Below, one piece after another: positions 49,250 to 59,998 of a stretch of DNA of 64,000 bases; position 1 is the stretch's first letter; every line of letters begins with the position of its first letter. The notes under the pieces are model-generated. The model was not told the DNA's origin, ran no database searches, and was given only the letters and a program-made list of their open reading frames with translations. This DNA comes from Lentilactobacillus buchneri (GTDB lineage Bacteria > Bacillota > Bacilli > Lactobacillales > Lactobacillaceae): NCBI RefSeq assembly GCF_018314255.1, contig NZ_CP073066.1, forward strand, positions 2,356,001 to 2,420,000, given 5' to 3'. The translations under genes and the position numbers were made by a program.

Positions 49250-50158
49250 TTGAAAGAGTATATTATTACCAACCAGACTGGACGTTTGGATAAAGTCATC
49301 TCGGAACTTGATTCTTCAATCAGCCGGTCACGGGCAAAAAATTTAATTGACGATCAACATCTCAAAATCAATGGTGAGCCAGTCAAACCAAAGTATCAAG
49401 TTAAGTCGGGGGATAAAATTCAGGTCGATTCGGTGCAACCGACTCCGATCAGTCTTGAACCGGAGAACATGCCACTTGATATTGTTTATGAAGATGATGA
49501 TGTGATTGTCGTCAATAAACCACAGGGGATGGTGGTTCATCCTTCCCCGGGTCATCCGGACCATACGTTAGTAAACGCTCTGTTGTACCATAGCCCGCTG
49601 TCAACGATTAATGGCGAGTTTCGGCCGGGCATTGTTCACCGAATCGATAAGGATACTTCAGGATTGTTGATGGTTGCCAAAAATGACAAAGCACATCAGT
49701 TTTTGTCACAGCAGTTGCAAGCCCAAAAAAATCTGCGAAAATATGTTGCTCTCGTCCATGGACGCATTAAGGAAGATTCAGGAGTCGTCAACGCGCCCAT
49801 TGGCCGGTCACCAAAGGATCGAAAAAAGCAGGCAGTTGTTTCGGACGGCAGAAGTGCCGTGACGCATTTTGAGGTGTTGGAGCGATTTGCTGACTACACT
49901 TTGGTTGCCTGCCGACTGGAAACCGGTAGAACCCACCAGATTCGAGTTCATATGAAATACATCGGGCATCCGATCGTTGGGGATCCTTTATATGGGCCAA
50001 GAAAAACCATTCGTGGCAATGGACAGTTTCTGCACGCCCAGGAGTTGGGATTTGAACACCCCCGGACGCATCAATTGATGATCTTTTCGGCGCCCCTGCC
50101 ACCAATATTTGAACAAACACTTAATAATTTACGATTAAACAACGCTCTTGGATCTTGA
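49250..50158 (+). CDS. rluD: Pseudouridine synthase, RluD family
   Basis: A 302-residue RluA/RluD-family enzyme. An N-terminal S4 RNA-binding domain covers about residues 12-70, then VNKPQGMVVHPSPGH, the catalytic HRIDKDTSGLLMVAK with its Asp, and ETGRTHQIRVHMKYIGHPIVGD. It isomerises uridines in 23S rRNA; the exact sites are inferred by family. Start TTG 49250 behind aagggga. The predicted pyrR promoter overlaps its stop codon. Confidence 0.94.
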   Translation: MKEYIITNQTGRLDKVISELDSSISRSRAKNLIDDQHLKINGEPVKPKYQVKSGDKIQVDSVQPTPISLEPENMPLDIVYEDDDVIVVNKPQGMVVHPSPGHPDHTLVNALLYHSPLSTINGEFRPGIVHRIDKDTSGLLMVAKNDKAHQFLSQQLQAQKNLRKYVALVHGRIKEDSGVVNAPIGRSPKDRKKQAVVSDGRSAVTHFEVLERFADYTLVACRLETGRTHQIRVHMKYIGHPIVGDPLYGPRKTIRGNGQFLHAQELGFEHPRTHQLMIFSAPLPPIFEQTLNNLRLNNALGS

Positions 50159-50183
50159 CAATCCGGCGCTGTTTTCATATTCT
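50155..50183 (+). promoter_or_regulatory. Predicted promoter of the pyrR-carA-carB-like operon
   Basis: Perfect TTGACA (50155-50160), exact 17-base spacer and TATTCT (50178-50183), beginning at the rluD stop. The leader of roughly 60 bases up to pyrR shows no attenuator hairpin and no PyrR anti-antiterminator sequence that I can recognise. Confidence 0.6.
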
Positions 50184-50249: not shown

Positions 50250-50783
50250 ATGGGAAAGATAATACTAGATAAAATGGCTATGCAGCGGGCCTTAACGAGA
50301 ATTACGTATGAAATCGTTGAAAAAAACAAGGGTGTTGAAGATTTAGTCTTAATTGGTATCAAGACCCGAGGAATCTTTTTGGCAAACCGAATTGCCGATC
50401 GGCTCCAACAATTGGAAAATGTTTCGATTCCTGTCGGTGAATTGGATATTACCAACTACCGTGATGATATCGAACACGATGCCATGAGCAGTGATGTCAA
50501 AATGTCCAATAACAAGATTAACTTTTCTATCGAAGGTAAACGGGTTATTTTGGTAGATGATGTTTTATACACGGGCCGAACTGTTCGGGCTGCCCTTTCC
50601 GCGGTCATGGACTTGGGTCGTCCCAAGAGTATCAATCTGGCAGTTTTGGTTGACCGTGGACACCGCGAATTACCAATTCGGGCCGATTTTGTCGGCAAGA
50701 ATATCCCAAGTTCTCAAAAGGAAAAGATTAAGGTTTATGTTTCAGAAATTGATGACAAGGATGCTGTTGAACTCATCAAATAA
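50250..50783 (+). CDS. pyrR: Pyrimidine operon attenuator PyrR / uracil phosphoribosyltransferase
   Basis: A 177-residue phosphoribosyltransferase-fold RNA-binding protein that, with UMP or UTP bound, attenuates pyr mRNA. The PRPP motif [18 protein letters not shown] is intact, as are [12 protein letters not shown] and [19 protein letters not shown] typical of PyrR. Start follows taaggag. It is 21 bases upstream of the carA-like gene. Some lactobacilli carry more than one pyrR; whether this is the main one cannot be told here. Confidence 0.96.
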
Positions 50784-50804
50784 TTCTCATTGCGAGGAGT
50801 CAGC

Positions 50805-51896
50805 ATGACGGAAAGATATTTAATTTTAGAAGATGGATCCGCGTATGCTGGAAAGGCATTCGGATCACTGGCAACAACGACGGGTGAAATTGTTGCCAAT
50901 TCAACAATGAACGGTTATCAAGAGATTATCTCAAATCAGATTTACCATAATCAGATTATCGTTTTTACCCAATCATCTATAGGGAATACCGGACTCGACC
51001 AGAATGCGTACGAGTCCATTTTGCCGTCCGCAAAAGGTGTCATTGTCAGGGAGTACGAAAATCTGGCAACTGACCACTTTAAGCGGATTTCTTTGGATAA
51101 ATATTTAAAACAACACAAAATCCCCGGAATTTATGACGTCGACACCCGAGAAATCAGACATCATCTACAGAAGCGCGGCAATATGAAAGCAAGCATTGTC
51201 GACGTCGCGGATGATCATGCTTTTGATCAGCTGCACGCGACGGTTTTGACAAATCAACAAGTTGCTCAAGTGGCAACTCCCAAGCCGTTTCCCAACCCTG
51301 ATGAAGGCGCCAACGTGGTCGTAGTCGATTTTGGCTTAAAAAGCGGCATTTTAAGGGAGTTATCCCATCGTGACTGTAACGTGACGGTGGTCCCTTGGAA
51401 CTTTTCCGCCGCCCAAATTTTGGATTTGGATCCGGATGGCATTGTTTTATCGACTGGTCCAGGTTCGCCGGAGAATTTACCAAAGTCTGTATTAGACATG
51501 ATTACAGAGGTTCAGTCGCAGGCGCCATTGTTTGCGATGGGCTTAGGCCATGAACTGTTTGCGCTTGCCAATGGTGCTAAAGTTTCCCAACTAACCGTTG
51601 AGCATCACGGCAGTAATCATCCCATTCGGGAAATTATCACCAATGAGATCTTTTTCTCAGGTCAAGAACAGGGGTATGCAGTTGATCCAAAATCAATTGA
51701 CCATGCCAAACTGTTTATCACCCATATCGATTTGGTGAATGGCACTGTTCAGGGCTTACGGCACAGAGATTACCCCGCATTTTCGGTTCAATTTTCTCCA
51801 GATGGGGCACCAGGGCCCAAAGACAGTGTTGGCTTGTTCGACGACTTTATGGAAATCATGGCAAGAAGAAGGGACAGCAATGACGATAGATATTAA
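50805..51896 (+). CDS. CarA-like protein with a dismantled glutaminase site
   Basis: A 363-residue homologue of the carbamoyl phosphate synthetase small subunit. ATG 50805 follows gcgagga. The N-terminal domain (about residues 1-155) and the class I glutamine amidotransferase domain (about 168-350) align end to end: LEDGSAYAG, NGYQEIISN, IPGIYDVDTREI, VVDFGLKSGILREL. All three triad residues are changed. The nucleophile motif G-x-C-x-G-H reads AMGLGHE (Cys to Gly246), and the usual Y-H-P-E reads FSPD (His to Ser331, Glu to Asp333). The oxyanion segment SNGPGDP is STGPGSP. It should not hydrolyse glutamine. Frame and length are intact, and it overlaps the carB-like gene. I give no symbol because the normal function is unlikely. 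Confidence 0.93.
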   Translation: MTERYLILEDGSAYAGKAFGSLATTTGEIVANSTMNGYQEIISNQIYHNQIIVFTQSSIGNTGLDQNAYESILPSAKGVIVREYENLATDHFKRISLDKYLKQHKIPGIYDVDTREIRHHLQKRGNMKASIVDVADDHAFDQLHATVLTNQQVAQVATPKPFPNPDEGANVVVVDFGLKSGILRELSHRDCNVTVVPWNFSAAQILDLDPDGIVLSTGPGSPENLPKSVLDMITEVQSQAPLFAMGLGHELFALANGAKVSQLTVEHHGSNHPIREIITNEIFFSGQEQGYAVDPKSIDHAKLFITHIDLVNGTVQGLRHRDYPAFSVQFSPDGAPGPKDSVGLFDDFMEIMARRRDSNDDRY

Positions 51897-54381
51897 CAAG
51901 GTCCTCCTGCTTGGCGGTGGCCCAACCAACATTGGCCATGAAAATGAACTTGATGCAGCCGCTTTTGAACGCTTGATGGCGCTCAAAAAAACCGGTGCGA
52001 AAATAATTTATGTGGATAACAATCCATTTTCCGTTACTACTGAAGAAATTCAACCAGCTAACGTGTATGTTCAAGAGGCCAATTTTCAAAATATCGTCAA
52101 CATTATTGATAAAGAAAATCCGGACGCCATTATGGCAACCACTGGCGGACTTAACGGCATGCAAATTGCTTGGCAGCTGGCTGAAAGTGGCATTTTGGCC
52201 TCTAACAACATTTCACTCTTGGGCATCAAACCGGCTGATTTGCGGAAGGTTATGGACAATCAGAAACTTCGTGATACTTTAACCGAAATTAATGAAAGAG
52301 TCATTGCCTCGAAAATTGTGGCCGATGACGACGAAGCCATGGACTTTGTCCGTGAGGTTGGTTTCCCAGTGATTGTCAAACCGATGTCATCAAGTCATGA
52401 TACCAGTCGGTTTATTTGTAATAATACTGACGAATTAGAAGATGCTTTGGATGTGAGTTTCAAGCGAACCTACATTAAGCGCTGCTCGATTGAACAGAGT
52501 ATTGTGGGTTACAAGGAAATTGAAATGGTCGGTATCCGCGATGAAAGCGGCAATAAGCTGCTGGTTTCGGGAATGGAAGATATGGATCCAATTGGGATTC
52601 ATTCTGGGGATTCAATCATTTTTGCACCAACGCAGACTTTGATTAATGAAGAATATCAAGCGCTCAGATCGGCAACTTTTCGCATTATGGATGCTCTGAA
52701 TGTGACGGGAACTTGTCACGTTCAATTCGCCCAGTCTAGAACCGATGCCAATTATTTTGTGACCAAGGTGAGTCCGTTCTTTACCAGAAACACCATCTTG
52801 GCTGCTAAAGCAACTGGGTACCCCTTAACGTACGTCTCAAGCTTTCTTGAAATGGGGTACAATCTGACTGAAATCAAGTTACCGAGTAAATATAACAAGT
52901 TTCTGCCGTTCATGGAGCCAACCATGGATCATGTGGTCGTTAAGATTCCATTATGGCCGTTTAGAGACATTACGGACGTTGACCAGCATTTGAACACTTT
53001 AATGAAATCGGTTGGATCTACCATTGGAATTGGCCGGACAGTGGAAGAAGCGATTATTAAATCCATGCATAGTTCCCAGTTTTCACCACGGGATATTTTG
53101 CCCAGCGTGTCGACGGTTAATGATGACGAGGTCATTAATCAACTCATTCATCCATTGGCCAGTCGAATATTAATTTTGATGGAGGCATTGCGGCGAGGCT
53201 TTTCAATTGATGAGCTATCTGAACTGACTCAAATTGATCGTTTCTATTTCTACAAGTTGAATCAATTATTGAGAGCTCAGGATTTTGTTGTCAATAACCC
53301 AATGTCACCGCAATCCATTGAAATTGGACACAAATACGGTTTTGGTGACGGCATGCTGGCTGAATTATGGCAAGTCAACATTTCAAAGATTCAGCAGTTG
53401 AACGAAAACTACCAGAATCACGTCACTTACAAGGCAGTTGAGCCGAGCGCCGGTGAGATGCTGGAATCAACCAATATTTTTTACAGCAGTTATGAATTGG
53501 AAAATGAAAGCCGGCCATTTGAAGAAAAGAGTGCTTTGGTGATTGGTCGGGGTGGGAACCAACTCGGCCCCAATTCGGCAGCGGATTATTACACCTCACA
53601 GATTCTCAGGGCGCTTCACAAGTCAGGCTATAAAACAATTATCATGAACACAAATCCGAATGCCGTCTCACTAACGCCACAGTTAAGTGACAAACAATAC
53701 ATTGAGCCGATCCAACTCGGAAATATTCTCAACATTATTAATTTGGAGAAACCAGATGTCGTCATTCTCCCAGGGAACCGACACTACTTGTCTAAACAGT
53801 TAAAACAATTTCAAAATCTTAATATCATCGTTTTGCCGCCGGATCAAAAAGTTGCCACATACAATCAAAAGTATGCGACAACAGCTGTCGATCTGTTCAT
53901 CGAAGGCGATGAAATTTTACCAGTTACGACCATTTCTTTTGTGGGGAAAGATCAACGGACTGACCTGCGGTTTATTAACGACTATAAAGAACCGATGGAT
54001 AACTGGAAGTCTGACGAAGCAAAATTGATTGCCGATGCCACTAACAAGGTAGATCCAAAAGAATGGCAGGGGCTGGTTCAAGTCTTGTATAATACAACTG
54101 GTGATTCTAAATATGAGATGACCGGCATTCGGCCTGTACGAATTACTGAGACCGCCTTTCTCACCAAAACGACCGGGATTAATTGGATTAACGTTTTGGT
54201 CCGTAAATACCTGCACACATTGGATATGGAAGCCTTGCGGGAAGACTTGAAGCCAACGGAGCACAAACGTGCATCGATTATGACTGCTCATTTCCCCTTC
54301 AGAGAACTCCAATCCAGTCGCACTGAGGGAACCACTAAGCAAGAAGTCGGTTCATCACTATCATTTAAGAATTTTGAATAA
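51880..54381 (+). CDS. CarB-like protein lacking second ATP-grasp core and allosteric domain
   Basis: 833 residues, against about 1060 for CarB. The ATG at 51880 has agaaggga upstream and overlaps the carA-like gene by 17 bases; a longer frame from 51739 is spurious. Residues 1-400 align with the first synthetase half (GIHSGDSIIFAPTQTL, VQFAQS, AAKATGYPL, MKSVGSTIGIGRT) and 400-545 with the oligomerisation region. The Gly-rich loop PSFTMGGSGGG is replaced by PMSSSHDTSRF, and the metal-ligand motif E-M-N-P-R is KVSPF (296-300). The second half starts at ALVIGRGGNQLG (552) but lacks about 180 residues, keeping a remnant AFLTKTTGINWI (759-770). The C-terminal MGS-like regulatory domain is absent. 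It is predicted inactive as a CPS. Confidence 0.92.
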   Translation: MTIDINKVLLLGGGPTNIGHENELDAAAFERLMALKKTGAKIIYVDNNPFSVTTEEIQPANVYVQEANFQNIVNIIDKENPDAIMATTGGLNGMQIAWQLAESGILASNNISLLGIKPADLRKVMDNQKLRDTLTEINERVIASKIVADDDEAMDFVREVGFPVIVKPMSSSHDTSRFICNNTDELEDALDVSFKRTYIKRCSIEQSIVGYKEIEMVGIRDESGNKLLVSGMEDMDPIGIHSGDSIIFAPTQTLINEEYQALRSATFRIMDALNVTGTCHVQFAQSRTDANYFVTKVSPFFTRNTILAAKATGYPLTYVSSFLEMGYNLTEIKLPSKYNKFLPFMEPTMDHVVVKIPLWPFRDITDVDQHLNTLMKSVGSTIGIGRTVEEAIIKSMHSSQFSPRDILPSVSTVNDDEVINQLIHPLASRILILMEALRRGFSIDELSELTQIDRFYFYKLNQLLRAQDFVVNNPMSPQSIEIGHKYGFGDGMLAELWQVNISKIQQLNENYQNHVTYKAVEPSAGEMLESTNIFYSSYELENESRPFEEKSALVIGRGGNQLGPNSAADYYTSQILRALHKSGYKTIIMNTNPNAVSLTPQLSDKQYIEPIQLGNILNIINLEKPDVVILPGNRHYLSKQLKQFQNLNIIVLPPDQKVATYNQKYATTAVDLFIEGDEILPVTTISFVGKDQRTDLRFINDYKEPMDNWKSDEAKLIADATNKVDPKEWQGLVQVLYNTTGDSKYEMTGIRPVRITETAFLTKTTGINWINVLVRKYLHTLDMEALREDLKPTEHKRASIMTAHFPFRELQSSRTEGTTKQEVGSSLSFKNFE

Positions 54382-54392
54382 GATTACAACAA

Positions 54393-54433
54393 AAAGGTCG
54401 GGGCAAAAGTTGATATTTTGCCCCGACCCTTTG
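54393..54433 (+). terminator. Terminator after the carB-like gene
   Basis: ggtcggggcaaaa pairs with ttttgccccgacc (13 bp) over a 7-base loop, followed by a short ctttg tail. It closes the pyrR operon. Confidence 0.75.
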
Positions 54434-54564: not shown

Positions 54565-56271
54565 TTATTTTCGCATCTGATCAATTAGATTTTCATCCGG
54601 GGTGACGAACAATGTCGTTTGATTGTCATAAATCACATACCCCGGTTTAGTACCATTGGGTTTGCGAATATTTTTGACTTTTGTGTAATCGACTTGTACT
54701 TTGGCGGATCCGCGCGCTTTCGAGAAATAGGCAGCTAGATTGGCAGCTTCCGCCAGGGTTTTCTCAGACGGGTCAAAGCTGCGGATAATGACGTGTGATC
54801 CAGGAATATTTTTGGTATGCAGCCAGGTATCACGTTTGTCGGCGGTATGCATAGTTAATTTTTCATTCTGCAGATTATTCTTACCGACTAAAATTTCTGT
54901 CCCATCACTTGCGACAAACTTTTCTGGTTTGTTAATCTTTTGTCGCTTATTTTTCTTCTTTTTGTTCTGCTCATGATCACGGAGATAATGACCTTGTTCC
55001 AATTCGTACTTGATGTCGATCAGGTCTTGGGGATCAGCCAGTTCAATTTGGGATTGAATATTTTCGAAGTAATCAACCTCCTGCTTGGTCAGTTGAATTT
55101 GTTCGCCAACAAATTTAACAGCGTTCTTCAATTTTTGGTATTTCTTGAAATATCGTTGGGCGTTTTGGGAAGGGGATTGTTGATTGGAAAGCTGAATGGT
55201 AATCAATTTATTTTCATCATAGTAGTTGGGCAGTTCAATGCTGGTCATTCCACGTTGAACTTTGTTGAGATAAGTTGTTAAAATCTCTCCCTTGACCCGA
55301 TAATCATCCGCATTTTCAGTTTCTTTCATATCCCGCTGGAGTTTCTTAAGTTTCGTGCGATTCTTTTTAAGCTGTTTTTTAACGACTTGAATCAGCACCG
55401 CGCCTTGTTCTCTGACCCGGTCTCTTTGGGCTTTGCTGGCGTAAAAAGCATCCAGCAATTCGCTCAATGTTGAGAAAGTTTGATTTTTAGTTGTACCCGG
55501 ATAGGGAAATGCGGTAAAATTAATCTTGTTACCTGCAACATGGCTAAAGGTTGGCTCTGGTGAGTCGAATTTTTGGAAGAAATCCTTGAAATTAGTCTCA
55601 ACTTTCTCGTCCTTATGCAAACTAGTTGCTAATGCCAAAGATGTGTCGTTGCCCAATCCTTGCATTGTTTTCCGCAGATTTTCAGCTAAAACGTCCACGT
55701 TTGGAAAATCTTTGATCAATTGGCGGACCCGGTCAAAGTCAGTCATCGTAAATGGGTTTTCCAAGTCCTGCTTCGGCGGTTTGATATAAGTTGCTCCAGG
55801 CAGCAACAAGCGATATCGGTTAACGTCAGAACCAACGTGTTTAATAGCGTCAATAATTTTTCCCGTGGCTTGCTCAACCAGGATGATGTTACTATGACGG
55901 GCCATAATTTCGACAATCAGATCTAATTTTGTCTGGTCACCCAGTTCATTGCGCGCCGTGAAGGTGAACGTCAACACGCGATCATTTTCCTGTTGGGAAA
56001 TATCACTGAGAATTCCACCGCTGAGATGCTTACGGACAATCATTGTAAAGTTTGTCGGCACACTGGGGTTGACATATGGAACTTTGGTAATCTGTACCCG
56101 GGCATACGTCGGGTTGGCAGACAGCAGCAGCTGTTGATTCTTTCCGTGAGCTCGGATTGTTAATATGAGTTCATTCGGATAGGGTTGATTAATTTTGCTG
56201 ATCCGACCCGTTTGCAGCAGATCGGTTAATTCATTTTTCATAGAATGGGTAAAAGAACCATCAAATGACAT
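54565..56271 (-). CDS. rqcH: Ribosome quality control protein RqcH (NFACT, fibronectin-binding-like)
   Basis: A 568-residue NFACT-family protein. I use the ATG at 56271, which gives the family start (MSFDGSF); GTG 56283 is in frame. The NFACT-N domain has the characteristic QQENDRVLTF segment with the Asp-Arg pair used in alanine tailing. HhH and long coiled-coil regions follow, then the NFACT-R domain near the C-terminus (TWLHTKNIPGSHVIIRS). RqcH adds alanine tails to stalled chains on 50S subunits; the older label is fibronectin-binding protein. Confidence 0.93.
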   Translation of the reverse strand: MSFDGSFTHSMKNELTDLLQTGRISKINQPYPNELILTIRAHGKNQQLLLSANPTYARVQITKVPYVNPSVPTNFTMIVRKHLSGGILSDISQQENDRVLTFTFTARNELGDQTKLDLIVEIMARHSNIILVEQATGKIIDAIKHVGSDVNRYRLLLPGATYIKPPKQDLENPFTMTDFDRVRQLIKDFPNVDVLAENLRKTMQGLGNDTSLALATSLHKDEKVETNFKDFFQKFDSPEPTFSHVAGNKINFTAFPYPGTTKNQTFSTLSELLDAFYASKAQRDRVREQGAVLIQVVKKQLKKNRTKLKKLQRDMKETENADDYRVKGEILTTYLNKVQRGMTSIELPNYYDENKLITIQLSNQQSPSQNAQRYFKKYQKLKNAVKFVGEQIQLTKQEVDYFENIQSQIELADPQDLIDIKYELEQGHYLRDHEQNKKKKNKRQKINKPEKFVASDGTEILVGKNNLQNEKLTMHTADKRDTWLHTKNIPGSHVIIRSFDPSEKTLAEAANLAAYFSKARGSAKVQVDYTKVKNIRKPNGTKPGYVIYDNQTTLFVTPDENLIDQMRK

Positions 56272-56403
56272 CTTATCACTCACTTTCGTATAAGTAGCAT
56301 GTACTAGTATAGCGCACTTTCTTGACTGATGCTAAGGAAGGCACATGTTATTTGTATGTCATTATCAAATAGCGTATACTAATTTTTCGGAGGTCTTTTC
56401 ATC

Positions 56404-58936: not shown

Positions 58937-59998
58937 ATGGAAGATGTATATTTAAGTTTAGGCAGTAATATTGGGAACCGCGAGGCATTTTTGCAACAGG
59001 CCATCGAGGCATTGGGTAGTGACCCACGGATTATGATTGAAAAGCAGGCCAGTCTGTACGAAACGTCCCCGGTTGGTGGGGTCAAGCAACGGGCATTTGT
59101 CAACACAGCTGTCAAGATTGGGACGACCTATGAACCCCTGGCACTCTTAAAGGTGATTCATGAAATCGAAAGTGGTCTCCATCGAACTCGCCAGGTTCAC
59201 TGGGGTCCAAGGACCGTGGATATTGATATTATCTTCTTTGGCAATGAACAAATTGATCAACCAGGGCTGTCGATTCCACATCCCGAAGCGTTTAATCGAT
59301 TATTTGTGTTGATTCCGATTCAAGAATTGATTGATGGACAATTTCCAGACGCTGATAAGATTGCCACGGCCATTAAGTCTCTCCAACAAGATGATCAATC
59401 AATCAAAAAAATCAGTCCGGCTAATAACTTCTACACCGAAATCACCAATAACGTTACTAACATATTGGCTGCAATTGGTGACGACCCGACTAGAAAGGGA
59501 CTTATTGAAACCCCGGATCGGGTTGCCAGAATGTATGCCAACATCTTTGATTCTATCGGACTGGAAGATTTTCAAGACTATAAACTGTTTGATTCACCGG
59601 AGTCAGATGACTCAAAGACGGTTATGGTGAAAGGGATTCCATTTTATTCGATGTGTGAGCATCACATGATGCCATTCTGGGGCAAAGTCAGTGTCGCCTA
59701 TGTTCCTGATAACGGGAAAATTATCGGTCTAAGTAAAATCCTGCGACTGGTTGATTTTGTATCACACAAGTTAAGTCTGCAGGAAAAAATTACGGATGAT
59801 GTTCTCAGCCAAATGGAAAAAATTCTCCATCCCAAAGGCGTGGCGGTAATTGTTGATGCCCGCCATATGTGTATCGAAATGCGGGGCGTCAAAAAAACCG
59901 GCACCGTGACCCGAACCACTAAATTTACCGGTGTCTTCCAGCAAAACGATGAGCTGAGAAGTGAGTTTTTGAATTCAATCCAGGTGGGACAAATATGA
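58937..59998 (+). CDS. folKE: Fused HPPK - GTP cyclohydrolase I (FolKE)
   Basis: A 353-residue bifunctional protein. Residues 1 to about 160 are 2-amino-4-hydroxy-6-hydroxymethyldihydropteridine pyrophosphokinase (YLSLGSNIGNREAFL, ETSPVGGVKQRAFVNTAV, HWGPRTVDIDIIFFG). Residues about 170-353 are GTP cyclohydrolase I with zinc ligands in SMCEHHMMPFWG and ARHMCIEMRGVKKTGTV. It covers the first committed step and a later step of folate synthesis. A folKE fusion is known in Lactococcus. The last four bases overlap folC. Confidence 0.95.
   Translation: MEDVYLSLGSNIGNREAFLQQAIEALGSDPRIMIEKQASLYETSPVGGVKQRAFVNTAVKIGTTYEPLALLKVIHEIESGLHRTRQVHWGPRTVDIDIIFFGNEQIDQPGLSIPHPEAFNRLFVLIPIQELIDGQFPDADKIATAIKSLQQDDQSIKKISPANNFYTEITNNVTNILAAIGDDPTRKGLIETPDRVARMYANIFDSIGLEDFQDYKLFDSPESDDSKTVMVKGIPFYSMCEHHMMPFWGKVSVAYVPDNGKIIGLSKILRLVDFVSHKLSLQEKITDDVLSQMEKILHPKGVAVIVDARHMCIEMRGVKKTGTVTRTTKFTGVFQQNDELRSEFLNSIQVGQI

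Follow-up and report, generated by a model that had tools for sequence, protein, structure and literature searches.

Why would a lactic acid bacterium keep, directly behind a gene for the pyrimidine attenuator protein PyrR, a second set of carbamoyl phosphate synthetase (CPS) genes whose catalytic residues have been replaced? The question is raised by a stretch of 64,000 nucleotides (hereafter the window) from Lentilactobacillus buchneri (NCBI RefSeq assembly GCF_018314255.1, contig NZ_CP073066.1, positions 2,356,001–2,420,000), in which pyrR, a carA-like gene and a carB-like gene follow each other on the forward strand (50250–54381); 21 bases separate pyrR from the carA-like gene, which in turn overlaps the carB-like gene by 17 bases. 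An earlier reading of this DNA (the original prediction) had singled out the carB-like gene and delimited its open reading frame (ORF) exactly (51880–54381, forward strand, 833 aa); the altered state of the CarA-like partner, the presence of pyrR in the cluster and the apparent descent of the pair from a pyrimidine operon are points beyond it. We refer to the two genes as pseudo-carA and pseudo-carB. The answer that we favour, with a probability of about one half, is that they encode a catalytically dead CPS pair turned into a regulatory partner that works with PyrR. Residues are given in E. coli numbering unless they are assigned to pseudo-CarB itself; G denotes a genome, L a fetched locus, g a genus code and f a family.

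Pseudo-CarB is homologous to E. coli CarB over residues 3–630 (1bxr in the PDB, E 1.5e-128), retains the oligomerisation domain (Pfam PF02787) and scores below both NCBIfam CPS cut-offs (544 of 1027 bits and 526 of 599 bits). The roles of the CPS catalytic residues are taken from the CPS literature. As originally predicted, the Gly-rich loop of the first ATP-grasp domain is replaced (residues 167–178 of pseudo-CarB read KPMSSSHDTSRF vs RPSFTMGGSGGG in E. coli), and KVSPF (residues 296–300) stands in place of EMNPR; with the glycine loop, Glu299, Asn301 and Arg303 all gone, the protein lacks the features that characterise ATP-grasp 1 of CPS. The full set of changes at this site comprises E299K, N301S, R303F, N283H and R129N, while the ATP-grasp 2 catalytic residues Glu840, Asn842 and Arg844 (E. 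coli record numbering) are replaced by Gly, Arg and Val. The protein also ends before the MGS-like domain, as had been claimed, since in the family alignment E. coli residues 923–947 and 953–1072 have no counterpart. The internal deletion proposed for the second half is real but covers about 81 residues (E. coli 662–685 and 700–756 in the family alignment) instead of about 180, and the remainder is strongly diverged: the remaining ATP-grasp 2 shares only 22 of 175 aligned positions (13%) with the ordinary CarB that this genome also encodes, which makes this remnant hard to see from a single sequence. Likewise, the good conservation ascribed to residues 180–540 holds for ATP-grasp 1 (108/273, 40% identity to the ordinary CarB) but not for the oligomerisation domain (22%); the first and second pre-ATP-grasp domains are 35% and 37% identical. 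An AlphaFold2 model based on 15 Lentilactobacillus sequences was poor (mean pLDDT 45.2, pTM 0.32), and no reading rests on it; homology suggests that the pair has a CPS-like fold.

The small subunit (50805–51896, forward strand) is altered as well. Pseudo-CarA of the window has Gly instead of the nucleophile Cys269, Ser instead of His353, Ile instead of Ser47 and Glu instead of Gln273, and thus in place of the Cys-His-Glu glutaminase triad it carries Gly269, Ser353 and Asp355, the last of which is found also in live CarA rows. It matches both CarA Pfam domains and exceeds both NCBIfam CPS cut-offs. In view of these scores, and since the L. fermentum copy is annotated as the small subunit of carbamoyl phosphate synthase, metabolic reconstructions may assign a CPS to auxotrophs that have none.

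These replacements are not peculiar to one strain. When the aligned CarA-like sequences from every fetched family locus are pooled (window excluded, same-genome duplicates removed), 96 distinct ones from 86 genomes or records remain, among which residue 269 is Gly in 70, Cys in 26 and nothing else. Of the 40 genus codes in a 397-genome sample, 33 are represented among the 70 Gly269 proteins, as is a record of L. fermentum; carriers of these 70 proteins include Lactiplantibacillus plantarum, and none of the 70 keeps His353. With four outlier loci set aside, Gly269 is present in 47/47 pseudo-CarA rows, again without a single His353, and the glutamine pocket is changed (Ser47 to Ile in 38/47 and Val in 6/47, Gln273 to Glu in 42/47). 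In the corresponding pseudo-CarB rows Glu299 is lost in 45/45 (Lys in 38, Arg in 7) and Asn301 in 33/45, residue 303 is Tyr in 33 rows and Phe in 8, and residue 283 is mostly His; Glu215 (44/45), His243 (41/45), Gln285 (36/45) and Arg306 (32/45) are largely kept. The altered positions are therefore conserved as new residues and are not random, and they are common to several genera. Pseudo-CarA still conserves 58 of the 113 positions that never vary in live CarA, and pseudo-CarB 72 of the 459 that never vary in live CarB (non-gap entries).

Is the locus simply decaying? It is not. Full-length pseudo-CarB occurs in 24/24 genomes of the genus, at 62–100% identity and with no inner stops. In a comparison of the window with its nearest relative (L044) the ratios of nonsynonymous to synonymous substitution (dN/dS) are 0.004 for pyrR, 0.009 for pseudo-carA and 0.014 for pseudo-carB, vs 0.018–0.048 for seven neighbouring genes, all rough values since dS of the three cluster genes is 0.58–1.61. 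The closest pair of loci (L048 and L050, dS 0.10–0.16) gives 0.037 for pseudo-carA and 0.033 for pseudo-carB, with neighbours at 0.024–0.117. Pseudo-carA and pseudo-carB are under purifying selection in both comparisons. The central statement of the original prediction, that the molecule cannot act as CPS while its scaffold is kept, is thus well supported by the loss of Glu299 and Cys269 in every row of the set compared, the loss of the ATP-grasp 2 residues and the strength of selection, and we regard the pair as probably devoid of CPS activity, as judged from its residues. In L. fermentum DR9 (CP033372.1, L058 5007–7510) pseudo-carB is split over two frames (139 + 691 aa), by a frameshift or a sequencing error.

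The place of the cluster in the genome is equally stable. Among 38 pseudo-CPS loci, namely the family loci and one L. fermentum record chosen from the best pseudo-CarB matches, rluD lies upstream in all 38 and pyrR lies between in 32. CarA-like proteins with rluD in the fetched stretch (n = 72) have Gly269 in 66 cases and Cys269 in 6. The 14 named loci with a pseudo-CarB-type protein are all Lentilactobacillus. A profile score is all that was obtained for most of the 397 genomes, and we claim no genome-level frequency. In 246 genomes of the order, family f1 alone gave matches at E <= 1e-165, a threshold that would miss diverged dead forms (g4, g9, g10, g37 and others); matches in f3 and f9 at 1e-156 to 1e-161 were judged by score and not by residue.

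What is the origin of the pair? At the rluD place, pyrR and carA lie farther apart in the six loci with Cys269. The one resolved gene by gene (g25, L170) reads pyrR-uracil permease-pyrB-pyrC-carA-carB-pyrK-pyrD-pyrF-pyrE, and in g12 an aspartate transcarbamoylase (ATCase) match lies inside the pyrR-carA stretch. Since this position is occupied by a longer pyr operon in genomes whose CPS there is intact, the pair seems to be what is left, in situ, of a pyrimidine operon. Partly reduced forms (g11, g14, g22) combine pyrR, a uracil permease, pseudo-carA and a CarB-like gene, and a full-length but altered CarB of 1054–1067 aa is found in g11, g14, g17, g21, g33 and g37. Three loci with a full-length CarB-like protein that has lost some sites and a dead or damaged CarA (L308 in g21, L158 in g11, L161 in g33) are possible intermediates; in L161 Cys269 is kept, His353 is replaced by Leu and Glu299 by Ala. 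In the phylogenetic analysis the main pseudo-CarA clade, of 43 rows, is supported as a single group (100/100); four rows had been dropped by hand beforehand. The CarA tree calculated without the active-site columns, and without 21 near-duplicate or short rows and the outgroups from E. coli and the window genome, implies five changes between dead and live forms (bootstrap 3–6), and a single clade is rejected only at p-AU 0.0355. A quick tree of the CarB N-terminal half (23 names dropped, both outgroups among them) places 51/51 dead rows on one side, with the trait columns retained and the dead rows fast-evolving.

The pair is also found in genomes that seem to lack de novo pyrimidine synthesis. 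The search for ATCase covered 49 genomes, i.e. 47 pseudo-CPS carriers and two intact-operon controls (G138 and G071). In 18 of the 47 carriers no ATCase scored above the cut-off. A single CarB-like protein matched at E <= 1e-40 in every one of them; it was assigned as dead by residue in 14 and by profile score in G153, G042, G066 and G063. With neither ATCase nor a second CarB match, the pair is probably no helper of an ordinary CPS there, and its retention without de novo synthesis argues for a signal broader than bicarbonate, or for another one. PyrR RNA sites were detected in 45 of the 49 genomes (none in G011, G042, G081 and G063 with strict filters). Fifteen such sites were fetched, all from a set of nine genomes that lack ATCase, and for seven of them we scanned the protein encoded next; these proteins are NCS2 uracil-permease-like (2), NCS1 permease-like (2), upp (1), a nucleoside deoxyribosyltransferase (1) and a phosphonate-type ABC binding protein (1); the permeases score under the NCBIfam equivalog cut-offs and above the NCBIfam NCS2 or Pfam family cut-offs. 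The remaining eight sites, judged by ORF starts, mostly seem to be followed by genes of these kinds; the permease of L214 seemingly comprises two ORFs, and L218 has no clear gene. Phosphonate-type ABC substrate-binding genes stand behind PyrR sites in two Lentilactobacillus genomes without ATCase (L211 3147–4088 and L215 3032–4021, the family scan applying to L211), and their product is possibly an unknown pyrimidine-related transporter.

The PyrR of the cluster (50250–50783, forward strand, 177 aa; attenuator protein/uracil phosphoribosyltransferase, NCBIfam PRK05205.1-4, E 4.5e-80, above cut-off) is the sole PyrR match at E <= 1e-15 in the window genome. Of the first 32 genomes searched, 28 had a single PyrR match, which in 26 cases was the cluster copy. 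Genome G270 is L. plantarum or a very near relative, with a pyruvate oxidase that shows one difference in 603 residues to PDB 4fee and also matches 1POW, the L. plantarum enzyme according to a passage of PMC2787491. It has two PyrR proteins. One belongs to a contiguous pyrR-pseudo-carA-pseudo-carB cluster at the rluD place, as in the window (L258). The other is 62.8% identical to it and, in a quickly made tree, clusters with PyrRs encoded in intact pyr operons (branches 81–87); in the related genome G338, pyrB and a 430-aa ORF lie behind the gene for the second PyrR. In L. plantarum PyrR1 is reported to respond to pyrimidine and PyrR2 to be the one that responds to inorganic carbon, as summarised in a section of PMC3582564 that cites Arsene-Ploetze et al. 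2006, and an excerpt of PMC7911632 identifies PyrR2 with lp_1782. Judged by its position, the copy in the L. plantarum cluster is probably this PyrR2.

Which mechanism could these observations reflect? If pyrR, pseudo-carA and pseudo-carB are co-transcribed and the two subunits still pair via the conserved CarA/CarB scaffold, the changed pocket of ATP-grasp 1 could hold a small ligand and not turn it over. The ligand state would be passed to PyrR and would alter attenuation of the pyrimidine synthesis genes, where present, or of genes for uracil uptake and salvage. As the likeliest single ligand we tentatively name bicarbonate, because the linked PyrR of L. plantarum is probably the inorganic-carbon regulator and because, within the pathway, it is CPS that uses bicarbonate. 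In its most complete form the proposal is bolder and correspondingly doubtful: the pair would be a dead sensor of bicarbonate (or another metabolite) that binds PyrR and gates RNA attenuation, i.e. the missing sensor behind the PyrR2 response, kept after the loss of pyrimidine synthesis and possibly reached repeatedly via the Cys-to-Gly replacement.

Several facts weigh against this reading. Both the binding to PyrR and the ligand are what we infer from sequence. The assignment of the L. plantarum protein to PyrR2 was made by position and identity, not by locus tags, and Arg303, a bicarbonate contact, is lost in pseudo-CarB. A CO2 signal has no obvious use in genomes that lack de novo synthesis. 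PyrR is present also in genomes with intact CPS, hence co-occurrence proves little; it is not beside the pair in 12 of the 66 rluD-linked Gly269 loci, and G039 (87% complete) has a dead CarA and no PyrR match. In the L048–L050 comparison the values of pseudo-carA and pseudo-carB are no lower than those of lspA (0.033), fhs (0.024) and fbp (0.028). In g4, g9, g21, g22 and g35 loci Gly269 CarA is accompanied by a CarB that keeps Glu299, and some of these pairs may retain partial activity, to judge from their residues. Finally, G114, G124 and G194 have ATCase above the cut-off and a single CarB-like match, which counts against regarding that protein as dead. The pseudo-CarB of G194 (L085) lacks the catalytic residues, and if it is the only CarB there, carbamoyl phosphate would need another source. 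Arginine breakdown is one possibility.

Or perhaps the pair senses something other than bicarbonate? A PyrR partner that binds glutamine, a nucleotide, phosphoribosyl pyrophosphate or a uracil-related compound is about as credible as the bicarbonate proposal, and several PyrR sites do guard uptake or salvage genes in genomes without ATCase, where CO2 would be an odd cue; against it stand the altered glutamine pocket (Ser47, Gln273) and the loss of the MGS domain, which binds UMP (uridine monophosphate) in ordinary CPS. We consider it unlikely that the changed pocket (Lys299, His283, Tyr303) performs a new reaction on an anion or a nucleotide. The conservation of the pocket changes and the retention of Glu215 and His243 would agree with new catalysis, but Glu299 is lost in every row and Asn301 in most, the second site is gutted, and the window offers no further gene between pyrR and the terminator; in the other loci, where a limited set of genes was looked for, some add a uracil permease.

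The presence of an ordinary carAB in the window genome (L001, carB at contig positions 975578–978505) and the kept oligomerisation domain leave room for mixed CarA/CarB complexes, in which the pair would tune or stabilise the ordinary CPS as a regulatory or dominant-negative subunit. This role is rather improbable, given the 18 carriers without ATCase whose sole CarB-like match is the dead one, and given that a second CarB match at E <= 1e-60 is absent from 5 of the 24 genomes of the genus (one of the five 88% complete). Least credible of all is that the pair is a functionless, slowly fading remnant of the pyr operon: the operon found at the same place in g25 and the split gene of L. fermentum DR9 would fit, and the low dN/dS and the full-length genes throughout the genus speak strongly against it. 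A regulatory partnership with PyrR accordingly remains our preferred interpretation. A carbonic anhydrase gene 3' of pseudo-carB in L. fermentum was considered as support for an inorganic-carbon signal; it has no match in the other 38 loci scanned and is given no weight.

As to the surroundings of the cluster, a promoter-like site (TTGACA-17-TATTCT, 50155–50183, forward strand) precedes pyrR; the consensus scan is weak, with 12 sites in the region vs 9.5 expected. A terminator-like hairpin follows pseudo-carB (54396–54428, forward strand; 13-pair stem with 8 G-C pairs), the longest of 7 sites in the region vs 5.5 expected, and pseudo-carA and pseudo-carB are the only genes between pyrR and this hairpin. 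The search for a PyrR leader at the cluster gave none, and the two Rfam matches listed there are sub-threshold miRNA families on the hairpin; elsewhere in the window genome pyrB lies divergent from the ordinary carAB, behind a PyrR RNA site. The syntenic anchors, which stand outside the proposed function, are an rluD-like gene upstream (49250–50158, forward strand) and, in many loci, an fbp-like (fibronectin-binding protein) gene downstream (54565–56283, reverse strand). Farther downstream (58937–59998, forward strand) a single 353-aa ORF combines the HPPK (FolK) and GTP cyclohydrolase I (FolE) domains in one folate-synthesis gene; fusions of the FolK-FolE type are known from lactic acid bacteria.

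If the interpretation is correct, one of the most studied amidotransferase complexes has given rise to a family-wide pseudoenzyme, and lactobacilli offer a concrete, deletable candidate for inorganic-carbon sensing via PyrR2. Among the matches listed by our literature search, outside which most subscription journals lie, no title or abstract deals with this pair or links PyrR2 to a CPS-like pair, and the names pyrAa2 and pyrAb2 do not occur in the literature searched. The pyr operon of L. plantarum is reportedly written as pyrR1BCAa1Ab1DFE, a naming which suggests that second CPS genes had already been noticed by name.

How does the pair compare with known systems? It is homologous to E. coli CPS (1bxr) and to the ordinary CarAB of the window genome and shares their gene order; unlike them, it lacks the glutaminase residues and the catalytic residues of both ATP-grasp domains, its second ATP-grasp is gutted and its MGS domain is missing. 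In the PyrR1/PyrR2 system of L. plantarum the cluster PyrR is one of two (G270), whereas the window genome has a single PyrR, in the cluster; the arrangement pyrR-pseudo-carA-pseudo-carB at the rluD place, common to the window and L258, was found here. In human CPS1 the glutaminase-like domain is dead through a Cys to Ser replacement, as described in a section of PMC4655335. CPS1 thus resembles the pair in retaining a dead glutamine amidotransferase part and differs from it in keeping both catalytic ATP-grasp domains, of which the pair has lost the residues. A further parallel is HisZ, a dead paralogue turned regulatory subunit, in which an enzyme fold is likewise kept without catalysis, for regulation; here the target is a candidate, PyrR, whose gene lies next to the pair and encodes an RNA-binding attenuator protein.

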